Source: Beijerinckiaceae bacterium
GTDB lineage: Bacteria > Pseudomonadota > Alphaproteobacteria > Rhizobiales > Beijerinckiaceae
Assembly (NCBI GenBank): GCA_009773635.1
Contig: WSYC01000016.1
Span: 1 to 64,000 of the forward strand
Length of the DNA stretch: 64,000 nucleotides
Reading direction: 5' to 3'
Below the pieces are notes generated by a model. It was given only the letters and a program-made list of their open reading frames with translations. It was not told the origin of the DNA and did no database searches. Within the stretch, counting starts at the first letter, position 1; each line of letters starts with the position of its first letter. This document shows, one piece after another, positions 35,309-53,948 of the stretch. The position numbers and the translations under genes are program-made.

Positions 35309-35440
35309 GTTGGTGTCCTCGTCGAAATCCCGGAAAAGGCGGCATTGATCCGCCCGCATTTCCCTGCCCCATGGCGCAACAGACGACAAGCCCAAACAGC
35401 GAAGGAAAAGCATCCTGCCGCTCTTTGGCCTCTCGCGTGT

Positions 35441-35484
35441 CGTCGACACAAAACCGGTGCCCACTTTTGTGCGACACGCTCTAT
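35441..35484. repeat. Dispersed element, AAAAGTGG...CCGG type, copy A
   Basis: 44 bases just upstream of plsC. Read on the minus strand they align without gaps to copy B at 51719-51762 (32 of 44 matches). They share atagagc...tg near the start, aaaagtgg, accgg and gtcga. It overlaps the extreme 3' end of ydcF by a few bases. Copy C is inside the nitrilase gene. Confidence 0.7.
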
Positions 35485-36119
35485 CCGCCGGAAAATCCGA
35501 GCGTATGCCGGATCGAGGCCGCCCAGTACTTGAGGAACTCGAATACGATGATCCTGAACAGCGTCGGGTCCTGCCACCAACGGTTGATCTTCGAGGCTTC
35601 CGGCACAACCGGATAGGGCTGGATCGACACGCCCGGCATGGCATATTCGAACTCCAGCATGGCCCGCGGCACATGGTAGCTCGACGTGACCAGAATGATG
35701 GAGCGGAAGCCTTGGCCTTGCGCCCAGCGCCGGGCCTCCACCGCATTGCCATAGGTGTTGCGAGCCTGATAGTCGAGGTCGACGCAGCACTCGAAAAGCC
35801 GCTCCCGACCCGGCCAGCGCCGCTTGAGCGCCTCCATCGGCGCGTGGATATTCACGCCTGAAATGACGAGGCGACGACCCTTGCCGCGTTCGAGCAAGAG
35901 CAGCGCATCATTGATCCGGTCTGCGCCGCCTGTGAGTACGACAATGCCGTCCGCTGGTGTCGGATCGCGCTGTTCGCGCTTTTCCAGCGAGCGCGCGAAC
36001 AGGATGACACCGATGAAAATGGCAACAAGCGCAAGGATGGCAACCCGGAACACAACCGCCAGAAATTCCCGGCTTGAGCCGGAAAAGAAGCGCGTTGACC
36101 GGGTGCCCTCTTCGCTCAT
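35481..36119 (-). CDS. YdcF family (DUF218) membrane protein
   Basis: 212 residues. One TM helix (VAILALVAIFIGVILFARSL), then a DUF218 domain: DGIVVLTGGADRINDALLLLERGKGRRLVISGVN, NTYGNAVEARRW, and the ILVTSSYHVPRAMLEF signature. Such proteins are linked to envelope polysaccharide or lipid-carrier metabolism but their reaction is unknown. The start overlaps the ftsX stop by 4 bp, so it is cotranscribed with ftsEX. Confidence 0.92.
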   Translation of the reverse strand: MSEEGTRSTRFFSGSSREFLAVVFRVAILALVAIFIGVILFARSLEKREQRDPTPADGIVVLTGGADRINDALLLLERGKGRRLVISGVNIHAPMEALKRRWPGRERLFECCVDLDYQARNTYGNAVEARRWAQGQGFRSIILVTSSYHVPRAMLEFEYAMPGVSIQPYPVVPEASKINRWWQDPTLFRIIVFEFLKYWAASIRHTLGFSGG

Positions 36120-47814: not shown

Positions 47815-47882
47815 GGCGCGTTTGCTATTCTCGACGCATTTTCTTCACGCGAACCGGCATCCACTTCGCTCGAAAATGCTTT

Positions 47883-50153
47883 TTAAAACGACAGATCGTG
47901 CGCGGCGGCGAATTCGGTCAGATCCGCGCGCAGGGTTGGGCCATCAAACGCCGTCTCCAGCTTGCCCCGGACAAAGGTTTCCAGCTTGCCAATATCAACC
48001 CCGCGCACCAGCGCCTTGACCGGGCCGATGTTGGACGGTGACATCGAGAACGAACGGAACCCGAGGCCGAGAAGGGCCAGCGCCTCGATCGGCCGCCCCG
48101 CCATCTCGCCGCAGATGCTGACGGGCTTGCCGGTCTCGCGCGAGAGCCGTGCGACGCTGGCCAGTGCCCGGAGAAACGAGGGGTGAAGCGTGTCGAAGCG
48201 CGTCGCCACCCGCGCGTTCTCGCGGTCGGCAGCGAACATGAACTGCATGAGATCATTGGTGCCGATAGAGACAAAATCCACTGCGGCGAACAGCCGGTCG
48301 AGATCAAACAGCAGCGAAGGAACCTCCAGCATCACGCCGAGGTGCACCTGCCTCGGGCCATTCTGGTTGAGGCGACGCAGCCGTTCACGCTCCCGATTGA
48401 GCATGCCGCGTGCAGCCTCGAACTCCTCAAGGGTCGAGATCATCGGCAGCATGATCCGCAAGTCCCGGTCGCGGGTCGCGTTCAGCAAGGCACGCAACTG
48501 GGTGCGCAGCAGCGCGGGCCGGTCGAGCCCGATCCGCACGGCCCGCCATCCGAGCGCGGGGTTCTCCTCGTCGATCTTGCGCAGATACGGCAACACCTTG
48601 TCGCCGCCGATATCAAGCGTGCGGAAGGTGACCGGGCGCCTGTCGGCGATATCGATGATCGTCCGGTAGAGCGCCTCCTGCGCCTGGGCGCGCGGCAGCG
48701 AGGGCGCGACCATGAACAGGATTTCGGTACGGAAAAGCCCGACACCCGCCGCCCCCGTTTCATCAAGATTCGGCAGGTCCACGAGCAGGCCCGCGTTCAT
48801 CTGGATATCGACGGAAACCTTGTCCTTCGAAATCGCCTGCTTGTCGCGCAGGGCGCGATACTGCTCCTGCCGCTTCGCCCGCATCCGGGCGCGCTCGGCG
48901 TAGGCGGCCTCGACATCCGGCGAGGGCCGGATCTGGATTTCACCGCTGGCGCCATCGATGATGATCGCATCGCCCTGCTCGACAAGCCCGATAATGCCCT
49001 CGGCTTTGCCGACCGTGGGAATACCGAGCGCGCGCGCGACGATGGCGACGTGGCTGGTTGCGCCCCCCTCTTCCAGCACAAGCCCTCTGAGACGCAGGCG
49101 CTGGTATTCCAGCAGCGCCGCCGGCCCCATGGCACGGGCGACGAGAATGGCGTTTTCCGGCAGGTTCTCCGCCGCAAGTGTGAAGGCTGCGCCGGTCAGC
49201 TGGTGCAGGAGCCGGTTGGCAAGATCGTCGAGATCATGCAGTCGCTCACGCAGGTAGGGGTCCGTCTGCCGGAGCAGCCGGACGCGGATATCGCTCTGCA
49301 CGCGCTCGACGGCAGCCTCGGCAGTAAGCCCGGTGTGGATCGCCTCCTGAAGCTTCCGGATCCAGCCGCGATCCTGCGCGAACATGCGGAAGGTTTCGAG
49401 CACATCCCGGTGCTCGCCGGCATGGCTGAGCCCGCCGTGATCCATGAGATCGTCGATCGACGCCCGCAGGAGTTCGAGCGAGGCGTTGAGCCGCTTGAGT
49501 TCGGCCTCCGGGTCATCCGCAACGAGGTTCTTGATGACGACGCGTGGCTCGTGCAGCACGACATGACCAAGGCCGACGCCTTCCGCGATCGGCTGGGCCA
49601 CCAGCGCCACCGTGCGCTTGACGACCGTGCCGCCGCTGCCGGGCCGGGCGAGCGCTTCAAGTTCGCCACCGGCGATCATCTCGGCGAGCACCATCGCGGT
49701 GGTCTGGAACGCCTCGATTTCCTCCTCGGAGTAGATGCGCGCGGCGCGGTTCTGCACGACGAGAACGCCGATGGCGTTGCCGGCCCGCAAGATCGGCACC
49801 CCGAGGAAGGAGGCGTAGATCTCCTCGCCCGTTTCCGGCTTGTAGGAGAACGAAGGGTGGCTCTGCGCATCCGACAGCGCAAGCGGCTGGGCTTCGCGCG
49901 CGATGAGGCCGACAAGGCCCTCGTCCATCCGCATCGTTGTCAGATGGACCGCCTCCCGGTTGAGGCCTTCGGTCGCATAAAGCTCAAGCGTGTTGTCGGC
50001 ACGGGCGACATAGACCGAGCAGACCTCGGCGACCATGTTGTTCGCGATCAGCACGACGATGCGGTCGAGACGCTCCTGCGCGCTGGCGGGTTCGCTCATC
50101 ACCTCGCGCAGGCGGCGCAGCAATACGCGCGGACCGACGAGGGAGCCTCGCAT
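47883..50153 (-). CDS. ptsP: Phosphoenolpyruvate-protein phosphotransferase EI-Ntr
   Basis: 756 residues. N-terminal GAF domain (ERLDRIVVLIANNMVAEVCSVYVARADNTLELYATEGL), then EI: PEP-utilising N-domain, phospho-His domain (LVLEEGGATSHVAIVARALGIP, active His) and a PEP-binding TIM barrel (GLFRTEILFM, TLDIGGDKVLPYL, CGEMAGRP). Feeds the nitrogen-PTS (NPr, EIIA-Ntr), a regulatory chain. It is downstream of lysC, as in other alphaproteobacteria. Confidence 0.97.
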   Translation of the reverse strand: MRGSLVGPRVLLRRLREVMSEPASAQERLDRIVVLIANNMVAEVCSVYVARADNTLELYATEGLNREAVHLTTMRMDEGLVGLIAREAQPLALSDAQSHPSFSYKPETGEEIYASFLGVPILRAGNAIGVLVVQNRAARIYSEEEIEAFQTTAMVLAEMIAGGELEALARPGSGGTVVKRTVALVAQPIAEGVGLGHVVLHEPRVVIKNLVADDPEAELKRLNASLELLRASIDDLMDHGGLSHAGEHRDVLETFRMFAQDRGWIRKLQEAIHTGLTAEAAVERVQSDIRVRLLRQTDPYLRERLHDLDDLANRLLHQLTGAAFTLAAENLPENAILVARAMGPAALLEYQRLRLRGLVLEEGGATSHVAIVARALGIPTVGKAEGIIGLVEQGDAIIIDGASGEIQIRPSPDVEAAYAERARMRAKRQEQYRALRDKQAISKDKVSVDIQMNAGLLVDLPNLDETGAAGVGLFRTEILFMVAPSLPRAQAQEALYRTIIDIADRRPVTFRTLDIGGDKVLPYLRKIDEENPALGWRAVRIGLDRPALLRTQLRALLNATRDRDLRIMLPMISTLEEFEAARGMLNRERERLRRLNQNGPRQVHLGVMLEVPSLLFDLDRLFAAVDFVSIGTNDLMQFMFAADRENARVATRFDTLHPSFLRALASVARLSRETGKPVSICGEMAGRPIEALALLGLGFRSFSMSPSNIGPVKALVRGVDIGKLETFVRGKLETAFDGPTLRADLTEFAAAHDLSF

Positions 50154-50276
50154 CACCAGAGCATCCTTTCCCTGACCATCTCGCCGGCGCCCGCCGACAG
50201 CGGCGGGCACAGGGGGCGAGTCAGCCCTTCACTGAGCTACAATGCAGCATGGCATCGGCGCAAGCCGTGTCGACCA

Positions 50277-51718: not shown

Positions 51719-51762
51719 ATAGAGCATGAACCGGAAAAGTGGAAACCGGATTTTCGTCGAAG
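51719..51762. repeat. Dispersed element, AAAAGTGG...CCGG type, copy B
   Basis: In the gap between the divergent lysC and ubiG. Begins atagagcatg, core ggaaaagtggaaaccgg, then attttcgtcgaag. Aligns without gaps to copy A (35441-35484, read on the other strand). It lacks the closing inverted-repeat arm seen in copy C, so it may be a truncated unit. Confidence 0.75.
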
Positions 51763-51843
51763 GACCGACAAAATGGACCCCGGCTGTCGTTCGCCCATGC
51801 CATCTCCGGCGCCGCTGCCGGAAAAATCGAGAGGATGTCAGCC

Positions 51844-52599
51844 ATGAAGAACGCTGCAACCGCAGGTCAGAGCGCGCTCGTCGATGCCGGCGAGATCGCG
51901 CGCTTCAACGCCATGGCGGCGGATTGGTGGAACCCCGATGGCCCGATGAAGCCGCTGCACCGGCTCAACCCTGTCCGCCTCGGCTTCCTCAAGCAGGAAT
52001 TCGCACGCCATTTCGGACGGGATGCGCGCGCGATGCGCCCGTTCGAGGGGCTCTCGCTGCTCGATATCGGCTGCGGTGCAGGCCTTGTCGCCGAGCCGCT
52101 GGCGCGGCAGGGGTTTGCCGTCACCGGCATCGATCTCGCGGAGGAAAATATCGCCGTCGCCCGTGCGCACGCCGAGGCGCAAGGGCTCGCCATCGATTAT
52201 CGCGCCAGCCCGATCGAGACCCTGCCCGAGGATGCGCGGTACGATGCCATCACGCTACTGGAGGTCGTCGAGCACGTGCCGGATGTACCGGCCTTTGTGA
52301 TGGAGGCCGCGCTGAGGCTCAAGCCTGGCGGCATGCTGATCGCCTCGACGCTCAACCGGACGATGAAAGCCTATGCGCTGGCGATCCTTGGTGCGGAATA
52401 TGTGCTGCGCTGGTTGCCGGTCGGCACGCACGACTGGGCGAAATTCGTGACGCCCGATGAGCTGGATGCCAGCTTCGAAGCTGCAGGGCTCGCGCCGGCC
52501 AACCGGTCCGGCATGGTACTGAACCCGCTCGGGATGGAGTGGCGGCTTTCAGGGGATTGCGACGTCAACTACCTCGCATCGGCCACGAAGCCCGCGTGA
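51844..52599 (+). CDS. ubiG: Ubiquinone biosynthesis O-methyltransferase
   Basis: 251 residues. Catalyses the two O-methylations of ubiquinone synthesis. EIARFNAMAADWWNPDGPMKPLHRLNPVRL is diagnostic of UbiG; SAM motif LLDIGCGAGLVAEPLA. GAGAGG sits about nine bases before the chosen ATG; the ATG three codons earlier has no room for it. Divergent from lysC. Confidence 0.97.
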   Translation: MKNAATAGQSALVDAGEIARFNAMAADWWNPDGPMKPLHRLNPVRLGFLKQEFARHFGRDARAMRPFEGLSLLDIGCGAGLVAEPLARQGFAVTGIDLAEENIAVARAHAEAQGLAIDYRASPIETLPEDARYDAITLLEVVEHVPDVPAFVMEAALRLKPGGMLIASTLNRTMKAYALAILGAEYVLRWLPVGTHDWAKFVTPDELDASFEAAGLAPANRSGMVLNPLGMEWRLSGDCDVNYLASATKPA

Positions 52600-52617: not shown

Positions 52618-53043
52618 TCAGTTGAGGTCATCCGGCAGCACCGGAACCGGCAGAACCTCGATGCCTTCCTCGCCGAGCGCCCGCGCCTCGTCCGGGCTGG
52701 TCACACCATAAATCGCGCGCTCGTCTTTTTCACCGTAGTGGATCTTGCGGGCCTCATCGGCGAATTCAGCCCCGACATTCTCGGCGTTGGCCTCGAGATG
52801 TTGGCGGAAGGCGCGGAGAATCGCCCGGATTTCGTGATCCTTGCTCCCCGGCGCAACAACGGGCTGCGGCTCCTGATCATGCACGGCCACCGCCGGCGCC
52901 ATGATCTGTTTCACGATCGAGTGCGAACCGCATATCGGACAGTTGAGCTGCCCGGCGGCAACCTGCGCGTCGAAAGCATCGCTGTCACGGAACCAGCTGT
53001 CGAATGCATGGGCGGCTTCGCACTGGAGAGCGTAACGGATCAT
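52618..53043 (-). CDS. DUF1178 protein
   Basis: 141 residues starting MIRYALQCEAAHAFDSWFRDSDAFDAQ, with a CPICGS pair that with an N-terminal Cys could bind zinc. Conserved tail DEARKIHYGEKDERAIYGVTSPDEARALGEEGIEVLPVP. Family of unknown function. Its start overlaps the nitrilase stop by 4 bp; the two are usually neighbours. Confidence 0.93.
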   Translation of the reverse strand: MIRYALQCEAAHAFDSWFRDSDAFDAQVAAGQLNCPICGSHSIVKQIMAPAVAVHDQEPQPVVAPGSKDHEIRAILRAFRQHLEANAENVGAEFADEARKIHYGEKDERAIYGVTSPDEARALGEEGIEVLPVPVLPDDLN

Positions 53044-53948
53044 TCGGCCGCCTGTTCCACCCCGAACCCCTGCCGGGTAACAGCAATGTCACGCGCGTGA
53101 CGAAGGGCGGGGATACGGCTGCGCGCATCGGCAACAGCGGCAAGATCGAGCGCCGCGAAGATCGGTCCGGGTGTATCGCCGGCCTCGGCGAGCACACGGC
53201 CCCAGGGGTCAATGATGATGGAATGGCCGTAGGTCTCGCGCCCGTCCTCGTGCACCCCGCCTTGCGCGGCGGAGATCATGAACGAGCCGGTCTCAATCGC
53301 GCGGGCGCGTTGCAGAACGCTCCAGTGTGCTTCCCCGGTCTGTCTGGTGAAGCAGGCCGGCGCGGTCAGGATATCCGCCCCCGCCTCGGCGAGCGCACGG
53401 AACAGCGCGGGAAAGCGGAGATCGTAACAGATGCCCATGCCGAGGATCGCGTCCCGCACCGCAGGACCCCGAAAAGTGGCGTCCGGTTTTCGGACAAGGT
53501 CCTGCGGCAGAGCCAAAGGCGCGACGACGGCGCAGGTTCCGGCGGTGTAGGTGTTGCTTTCGCGCCAGCTTTCGCCGTTCGGCAGATCAACATCAAACAG
53601 ATGAAGCTTGTCATAGCGCGCGACGACGCCGCCGTCCGGCCCGACCAGCAAGCCGCGATTGGCGAGCTTGTCACCCTCTTTCACCGCGATCGAGCCGAGG
53701 TGAAAATGCACGGCGTGCTGGCGCGCGAAATCCCGGACCGCCGCGAGCATGGGATCAGCATCTTCGGGGCGGATCGCCTCGAAGAACGCGGGTCGGTTGC
53801 GCTCGATGATATTCGACATCTCCGGCGATTGCACGAAGCGCGCGCCGCGTGCCACCGCGTCCTTCGCCATGGCGAGGAGATCATCGATGTTGCGCGCCAC
53901 CGCTCGGGTGGTGCGCATCTGGAGGGCGGCAACGGTGAGCACGGTCAT
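53040..53948 (-). CDS. Nitrilase-superfamily (Nit1-type) amidase
   Basis: 302 residues; catalytic triad E43 (SPEMSN), K114 (YDKLHLFD), C174 (GICYDLRFP). Closest to deaminated glutathione amidase (Nit1). Residues 149-163 are encoded by a palindromic repeat element and extend the loop just before the catalytic Cys strand; usual homologues have about 15-20 fewer residues there. The reading frame is intact. Operon: grxC, this gene, DUF1178. Confidence 0.92.
   Translation of the reverse strand: MTVLTVAALQMRTTRAVARNIDDLLAMAKDAVARGARFVQSPEMSNIIERNRPAFFEAIRPEDADPMLAAVRDFARQHAVHFHLGSIAVKEGDKLANRGLLVGPDGGVVARYDKLHLFDVDLPNGESWRESNTYTAGTCAVVAPLALPQDLVRKPDATFRGPAVRDAILGMGICYDLRFPALFRALAEAGADILTAPACFTRQTGEAHWSVLQRARAIETGSFMISAAQGGVHEDGRETYGHSIIIDPWGRVLAEAGDTPGPIFAALDLAAVADARSRIPALRHARDIAVTRQGFGVEQAAE
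53461..53505. repeat. Palindromic element inside the nitrilase gene, copy C
   Basis: 45 bp with perfect 8-base terminal inverted repeats gcaggacc (53461-53468) and ggtcctgc (53498-53505) around the core ccgaaaagtgg...ccggttttcgg. Exactly 15 codons, in frame, so it adds 15 residues without breaking the gene. Similar GATC...GAAAAGTGG...CCGGTTTTCGG...GATC hairpins are familiar as intergenic repeats of Hyphomicrobiales. Confidence 0.75.

Follow-up and report, generated by a model that had tools for sequence, protein, structure and literature searches.

Palindromic insertions that are read in frame are best known from Rickettsia, and the RIME repeats, at ~103-108 bp, are made up of two palindromes. 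The RPEs of Rickettsia lie in frame in protein genes, and one tested enzyme carrying such an element was still active (PMC2229807). In-frame or intragenic palindromic repeats have already been published from Rickettsia, from enterobacteria and from several REP-bearing genomes (PMC2229807, PMC2759123, PMC3733652). Some GTAG and CGTC REPs are intragenic, for example in Rickettsia conorii, and REP families are also found in Bradyrhizobium (PMC3733652), where Br-REP1 and Br-REP2 are intergenic and have a consensus different from that of the element described here (PMC5082802). RIME and Bru-RS are repeats of the same order as the host of the present DNA (PMC2573895, PMC10800456), and the palindromic Bru-RS1 and Bru-RS2 of Brucella measure 103 and 106 bp in one locus (PMC10800456). 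Quasi-palindromes are known to be corrected by template switching, a process discussed for other palindromes (PMC6649704).

The window analysed is a stretch of 64,000 nucleotides from the genome of a Beijerinckiaceae bacterium (contig WSYC01000016.1, assembly GCA_009773635.1; here genome G000). On its minus strand it contains a gene for a Nit-type carbon-nitrogen hydrolase of 302 aa (53040..53948), recognised from its open reading frame and from PF00795 (CN_hydrolase), which in a profile search covered residues 5-276 with an E-value of 2.1e-50. The closest NCBIfam models were those of deaminated glutathione amidases, yet the protein scored far under their cut-offs. The AlphaFold2 model is a confident nitrilase fold (pTM 0.87, mean pLDDT 88.8), for which Foldseek returned mouse nitrilase-2 (2w1v) as the top solved-structure match. 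Residues E43, K114 and C174, which we take to be the catalytic triad, are all invariant in an alignment of 39 sequences; the C174 codon is located at 53427..53429 (minus strand).

This gene hosts a copy of a palindromic element, with the core AAAAGTGG-NNN-CCGGTTTT and variable arms, which lies on the plus strand at 53460..53506 and was found in the window by covariance model R1 with 59.2 bits (E 2.8e-16), the copy being itself a row of that model. The hairpin at 53460-53506 has 18 modelled pairs and a 3-nt loop; its arms GCAGGACC and GGTCCTGC (53461-53505) match perfectly over 8 nt and extend outward to 10 nt. An earlier note on this DNA had described a 45-bp palindrome with perfect 8-bp arms in frame inside the gene, and it is present at 53461-53505. 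The 45 bp are the length of the hairpin, while the net insertion relative to congeners is 57 bp, or 19 codons (53457..53513, minus strand; ~residues 146-164), with boundaries set by congener anchors to within +/-1-2 codons. The length of 15 codons given for the palindrome was also right, but it begins at the third base of codon 148, so its assignment to residues 149-163 is approximate. In the AlphaFold2 model the inserted segment sits between strands 141-145 and 167-171, just ahead of the strand that leads to C174, and it includes the lowest-confidence part of an otherwise confident model (pLDDT <50 at residues 153-155 and 157-162). No terminator-like site was found in 53300-53700, and an intrinsic terminator at the Nit copy was rejected on this ground.

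Nit orthologues were collected by a relatives search of 61 genomes (59 with a match) and by a named-genome search, from which 27 of 80 loci were taken; 57 loci were aligned. Between two anchors, the Nit stretch measures 183 bp in G000, 186 bp in G006, 156 bp in G009 and 126 bp in 13 other congeners, and a second anchor set, read in six genomes, gave 177, 180 and 150 bp for the same three and 120 bp in three others. The comparison with orthologues proposed in the earlier note, in which 15 of the 16 other congeneric genomes were matched (G016 had no Nit match in the relatives search of the genus genomes), supported an insertion: the site is empty in 13 (G001-G005, G007, G008, G010-G015), and G006 has this element too, inserted at the identical codon, in the same phase and on the same strand, its insertion being 60 bp against the 57 bp of G000. 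G009 has 30 extra bp (10 codons) in the same loop, unrelated to the element. Ten element-unrelated extra codons occur at exactly the same loop at loci L045 (the G009 gene) and L073, and a few distant homologues have some extra residues there without the element. Because L073 agrees with G009 in this protein stretch and in length, G009 is probably Rhabdaerophilum calidifontis, and the window genome would then belong to Rhabdaerophilum. A four-protein tree of 16 genomes placed G000 and G006 as sisters (support 1.000), with G001 and G014, both empty at Nit, branching next; it is a rough tree, with missing data and possible sarcosine oxidase paralogues in some genomes. Given the empty sites in congeners and this tree, the simplest history would be a single gain in the ancestor of G000 and G006.

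The exact core occurs once in the window (0 in 100 shuffles), and a looser core with up to 3 mismatches three times, against a shuffle mean of 0.07. The covariance model located a second, intergenic copy at 35434..35480 (minus strand), directly after the stop codon of the gene at 35481-36053 (minus strand), and a third, also intergenic, at 47835..47880 (minus strand), adjoining the stop end of the gene at 47883-50210 (minus strand). A fourth copy, at 51723..51767 (plus strand; 25.8 bits), is degenerate, its outer arms pairing at only 3 of 7 positions, and lies upstream of a methyltransferase-like gene that has its called start at 51844; a fifth match was at chance level (E 0.39). The two intergenic copies previously listed are therefore present, with coordinates 4-7 bp off, but one of them is the degenerate copy at 51723-51767, and the copy at 47835-47880 had been missed. 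The longest open reading frame of the methyltransferase-like gene begins at a GTG inside the degenerate copy, while the gene caller starts it at 51844 (window 51739-51844).

The window copies belong to a large family. A count of genomic copies, which the earlier note had advised, gave 10 exact cores in G000 (0 in the reversed control), 45 places within 3 mismatches (5 in the reversed control) and at least 106 covariance-model matches at E<=0.01 among the 150 candidates scored out of 1851, as well as six further genes with in-frame copies. All 17 congeneric genomes had model matches; the fewest, 3, were in G009, where the exact core is missing, and the most, at least 150, in G004. The exact core was present in 65 of 150 genomes, its own included, with 5 control matches overall. 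The model was built from 41 aligned copies, partly the window's own, including four added rows from G006 and one from G004; three more G000 rows were omitted, namely two whose arms form fewer than 5 pairs and one L153 copy, while the second L153 copy was trimmed.

The arms of these copies differ widely and still pair. Arm statistics were based on 39 of the 45 places, with the armless L160-L164 and L166 removed by hand, which favours pairing somewhat; among these 39 copies there are 23 distinct left arms, and a copy's own arms pair at 6.5 of 7 positions, compared with 4.7 when combined with the arms of other copies (0 of 20000 permutations). In the alignment of 41 copies, both sides vary at 13 of the 18 pairs, 92.9% of cells pair, and 0 of 500 shuffles reached any of five covariation measures.

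The exact core occurs 149 times in G004, mostly with the same loop among the copies listed (L251-L277, odd numbers), and copies were near-identical at 13 of the 15 loci read; this near-identity looks like the result of a recent burst of amplification, making G004 a good place to seek a mobilising enzyme. Many copies have an A-rich tail. One full-length form (L314, 17249-17355) is 107 bp long, with a second palindrome and 13-nt terminal inverted repeats, CTAGAGCGTTTTC and GAAAATGCTCTAG, that are 92% complementary; the single-hairpin copies are without the second end. Of the features that define a MITE, terminal inverted repeats were thus looked at in one full-length copy, and target-site duplications were not visible on inspection of the empty sites, whose flanks have diverged. 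A transposon ending in CTAGAGCRTTTTC would be a candidate mobiliser. None of the 17 congeneric genomes, which include two of only 78-83% completeness, contained the Y1 (RAYT) transposase domain PF01797, and it was present in 4 of 26 genomes with at least 10 exact cores compared with 21 of 124 others; mobilisation by RAYT was rejected, as none was found in the genus and its presence was not associated with copy number. Rfam searches gave no match for the full-length copy and, at the gathering threshold, none for the window. The repeat occurs widely across the order and probably does not mobilise itself. One copy (L310, 9674-9719, contig C6) lies between two genes that, from their translations, we take to encode ribosomal proteins L18 and S5.

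The placement of copies relative to genes was assessed in a sample of 464 kb, composed of the window and the first 200 kb of contigs C6 and C24, chosen without regard to copies except for the window, with genes called by a simple codon-usage caller. The covariance model detected 22 copies in this sample, the weakest with an E-value of 0.004. Five of the 22 lie inside called genes (Nit, a protein kinase, a GGCT-like gene, LutB/LldF and TopA) with the frame open throughout, whereas 82% would be expected inside genes under random placement; copies are thus scarce in genes. Of the remaining 17, 16 lie no more than 55 bp downstream of a called stop codon, where 18% would be expected; the 55-bp limit was chosen after the gaps had been seen. 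Three of the 17 overlap a gene end by 1-2 bp. Two additional coding copies, in XseA and in sarcosine oxidase alpha, were found outside the sample, bringing the in-frame genes to seven.

Comparison with congeners makes the insertion visible in five of these genes: Nit, XseA, the kinase, sarcosine oxidase alpha and the GGCT-like gene. The last three are each 63 bp longer than in G006, while XseA has a net gain of 33-36 bp over G006, G001 and G004 at a variable loop site, where G003 has a segment of intermediate length. That shortened segment (L177), LPVAPKGGG, looks like the beginning of what is inserted in G000 and could represent a copy that has decayed. At the GGCT site, G016 has three unrelated extra residues, and L238 (G014) and L239 (G006) are empty. 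In TopA and LutB, alignments with PDB entries or profiles break at the element, these breaks being the basis for the two. Six of the seven coding copies are in sense orientation and the Nit copy is antisense; the sense copies use three frames, and the frame reading xAKVxxGFA or a variant of it occurs four times. Copies in long open reading frames ahead of fumarase, RNase D, two ABC transporter genes and others (names from translations) were rejected as coding, since the recognisable protein begins after the element. When GC3 was used to screen 15 copies of G006 and 15 loci of G004, no interior coding copy was detected and two G006 copies lay near the start of an open reading frame; the screen is insensitive, as it also missed the known G006 Nit copy.

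The kinase site carries in-frame copies in two clades, in tandem in one of them. The loop between HLDLKPSN and DFG holds copies in G000 (L184) and in G008, G004 and G010 (L194, L195, L199-L201). In position and frame they match G000: G004 and G008 have two tandem copies, and G010, where the gene is cut by a contig end, has at least one. The site is empty in G002, G006, G007, G011-G013 and G015, G001 and G014 have unrelated small extra residues there, and no kinase match was found in G003, G005, G009 and G016. On the simplest reading of these sequences, G000 and the G004/G008/G010 clade apparently acquired copies at this site separately, and the loop would be either a hot spot or an unusually tolerant site.

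Arms that pair are retained in all seven coding copies, five of them at 7 of 7 positions and TopA and LutB by reading. Between the Nit copies of G000 and G006, 4 of 11 arm pairs have changed, each on both sides with pairing kept, none has changed on one side, and 7 are unchanged; for this one coding orthologous pair the probability under independence is 3.7e-5. This compensation was scored on Nit only, the intergenic orthologous pair L026/L254 being outside the score. In the core, the letters outside the 3-nt loop are identical, while the loop, the bulge and the tail differ. At the protein level, 13 of 22 compared codons of the segment change amino acid, the last few being affected by the one-codon length difference. 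Pairing is kept while these residues change, which suggests that the DNA stayed a hairpin while being read as protein; what is conserved in the segment appears to be the palindrome, not the protein sequence. We give slightly less than even odds to the broader proposal that the evolution of the loop is dictated by the DNA palindrome, with arms changing together across species through template-switch correction or structural selection and not through the protein; residues at two separate places in the loop would then change together, as a consequence of the persisting self-complementarity of the nucleic acid. The data fit both template-switch correction and selection on folding, and do not separate them.

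Taken as a whole, the account that we favour, at a probability of roughly 85%, is that an order-wide palindromic unit was inserted in the Nit gene of the ancestor of G000 and G006, was tolerated as a loop, and that its arms then changed in pairs. A copy would have entered a loop-coding site of Nit in that common ancestor, and the enzyme would have gained a predicted loop of 19-20 residues between two strands just before the invariant cysteine; the outcome would be a loop instead of a disrupted gene because the length is divisible by three and one antisense frame has no stop codon. Tolerance by the enzyme is suggested by the open frame and the invariant residues. The subsequent paired changes would most likely come from replication past the quasi-palindrome, which copies one arm onto the other, or from a selected folded form of DNA or RNA. 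Length variation without the element at such sites (Nit in G009, the kinase in G001 and G014, GGCT in G016, and XseA) counts against this account, as do the single coding pair behind the compensation test and the scarcity of copies in genes (5 of 22, with 82% expected at random). Loop length also varies among Nit homologues, as would be expected of an ordinary loop that happens to be palindromic, but chance likeness of this kind is vanishingly improbable in view of the 0 exact matches in 100 shuffles, the same element in the sister orthologue and the model score of 59.2 bits. We consider it improbable as well, though far less so, that two independent insertions, or gene conversion, affected the same Nit loop in G000 and G006, the arm differences then reflecting different donors. 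Arms do vary strongly within the genome (23 distinct left arms among 39 copies), and the kinase site gives an apparent case of separate hits; however, the two Nit copies share codon phase and strand and have similar tails ending in the same CAAAGGCG, the two genomes are sister species, and the GCAGGACC arm is in none of the other 38 listed G000 copies, where a donor would be sought.

Two further explanations concern what has kept the segment since its gain. Selection on the folding of mRNA or DNA, for instance for decay, pausing or protein binding, could have maintained the hairpin instead of arm-by-arm mutational correction; the coding-strand RNA of the Nit copy folds at z -3.68, and the concentration of non-coding copies (16 of 17) within the post hoc limit of 55 bp after a stop codon, against 18% expected, is in keeping with such a role. 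We regard it as possible but on balance doubtful, given the lack of a terminator-like site in 53300-53700 and the fact that pairing is kept in coding as well as in non-coding copies, for which a general mutational process accounts equally well. It is much less probable that the segment was recruited for a function of the protein, such as substrate gating or subunit contacts near the nucleophile, and was kept by amino-acid selection. Its open frame in both sister species and its position just ahead of the strand leading to C174 would agree with recruitment, but 13 of 22 codons change amino acid between G000 and G006 while pairing persists, the segment has low pLDDT, and 13 congeners do without it.

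A Hyphomicrobiales genome here holds several in-frame palindromes, including those in topA, xseA and a protein kinase gene, most with clean empty sites in congeners. Extrapolating from five coding copies in 464 kb, ~35 genes of the genome could carry such segments, and, if true, the element would be a recurrent source of new loops in the genus. The paired changes in a coding hairpin allow one to test whether such segments are shaped by correction of the quasi-palindrome at replication rather than by selection on the protein. Two Rfam families named as Brucella sRNAs, BASRCI408 (23.3 of 398 bits) and BASRCI27 (20 of 59.8 bits), resembled the element far below their gathering threshold and over the hairpin part only, and when Brucella Rfam models were run against six further loci only L041 (1448-1541) matched at E<=0.1. 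Part of these sRNAs may, from this likeness of sequence, be the palindromic repeat described here, and the hairpin likeness may bear on how the two families are read.

The kind of element, a coding palindrome, is known; we did not find this family inside genes, with conserved pairing, in print. Neither the family inside genes nor such a coding palindrome with compensated arms was found among the literature matches listed, which cover the field in part, and the portions available of PMC12306157 and PMC2267715 had nothing on the element. Among described repeats, the GTAG and CGTC REPs are similar in being short palindromes mostly close downstream of genes, with some inside open reading frames, whereas the stems of CGTC REPs are of 8-9 bp with loops of 4-5, compared with 18 modelled pairs and a 3-nt loop here (PMC3733652). 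By eye, none of the 41 aligned copies has a GTAG or CGTC tag at its stem ends, and the window copy has CGTC only in its loop; membership of the CGTC/GTAG REPs was rejected for the missing end tag and the different stem and loop (PMC3733652). The full-length copy, with 107 bp and a second palindrome, resembles RIME and Bru-RS, a comparison made by architecture only and on one copy. RIME was named as intergenic (PMC2573895), unlike the single-hairpin coding copies found here, as far as the descriptions allow comparison. ERIC and RU of enterobacteria are likewise small mobile sequences fused in frame with genes, but, as likened by description, they are units of 103-168 bp in other organisms (PMC2759123).

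The nearest known systems are the RPEs, with which the coding palindromic repeats of Wolbachia are grouped here. RPE units are longer, at 105-146 bp (PMC2229807), than the coding insertions of 57-63 bp observed here (33-36 bp net in XseA), and RPEs lose their repeat identity (PMC6649704), whereas the arms of the present element undergo paired changes. Both are dispersed palindromes that occupy intergenic positions as well as, in frame, conserved protein genes (PMC2229807). The parallel with Rickettsia drawn in the earlier note thus applies to behaviour, and kinship of sequence forms no part of it: a dispersed palindrome family with in-frame copies that are absent from orthologues places the element in an RPE-like functional class, by the way it behaves.
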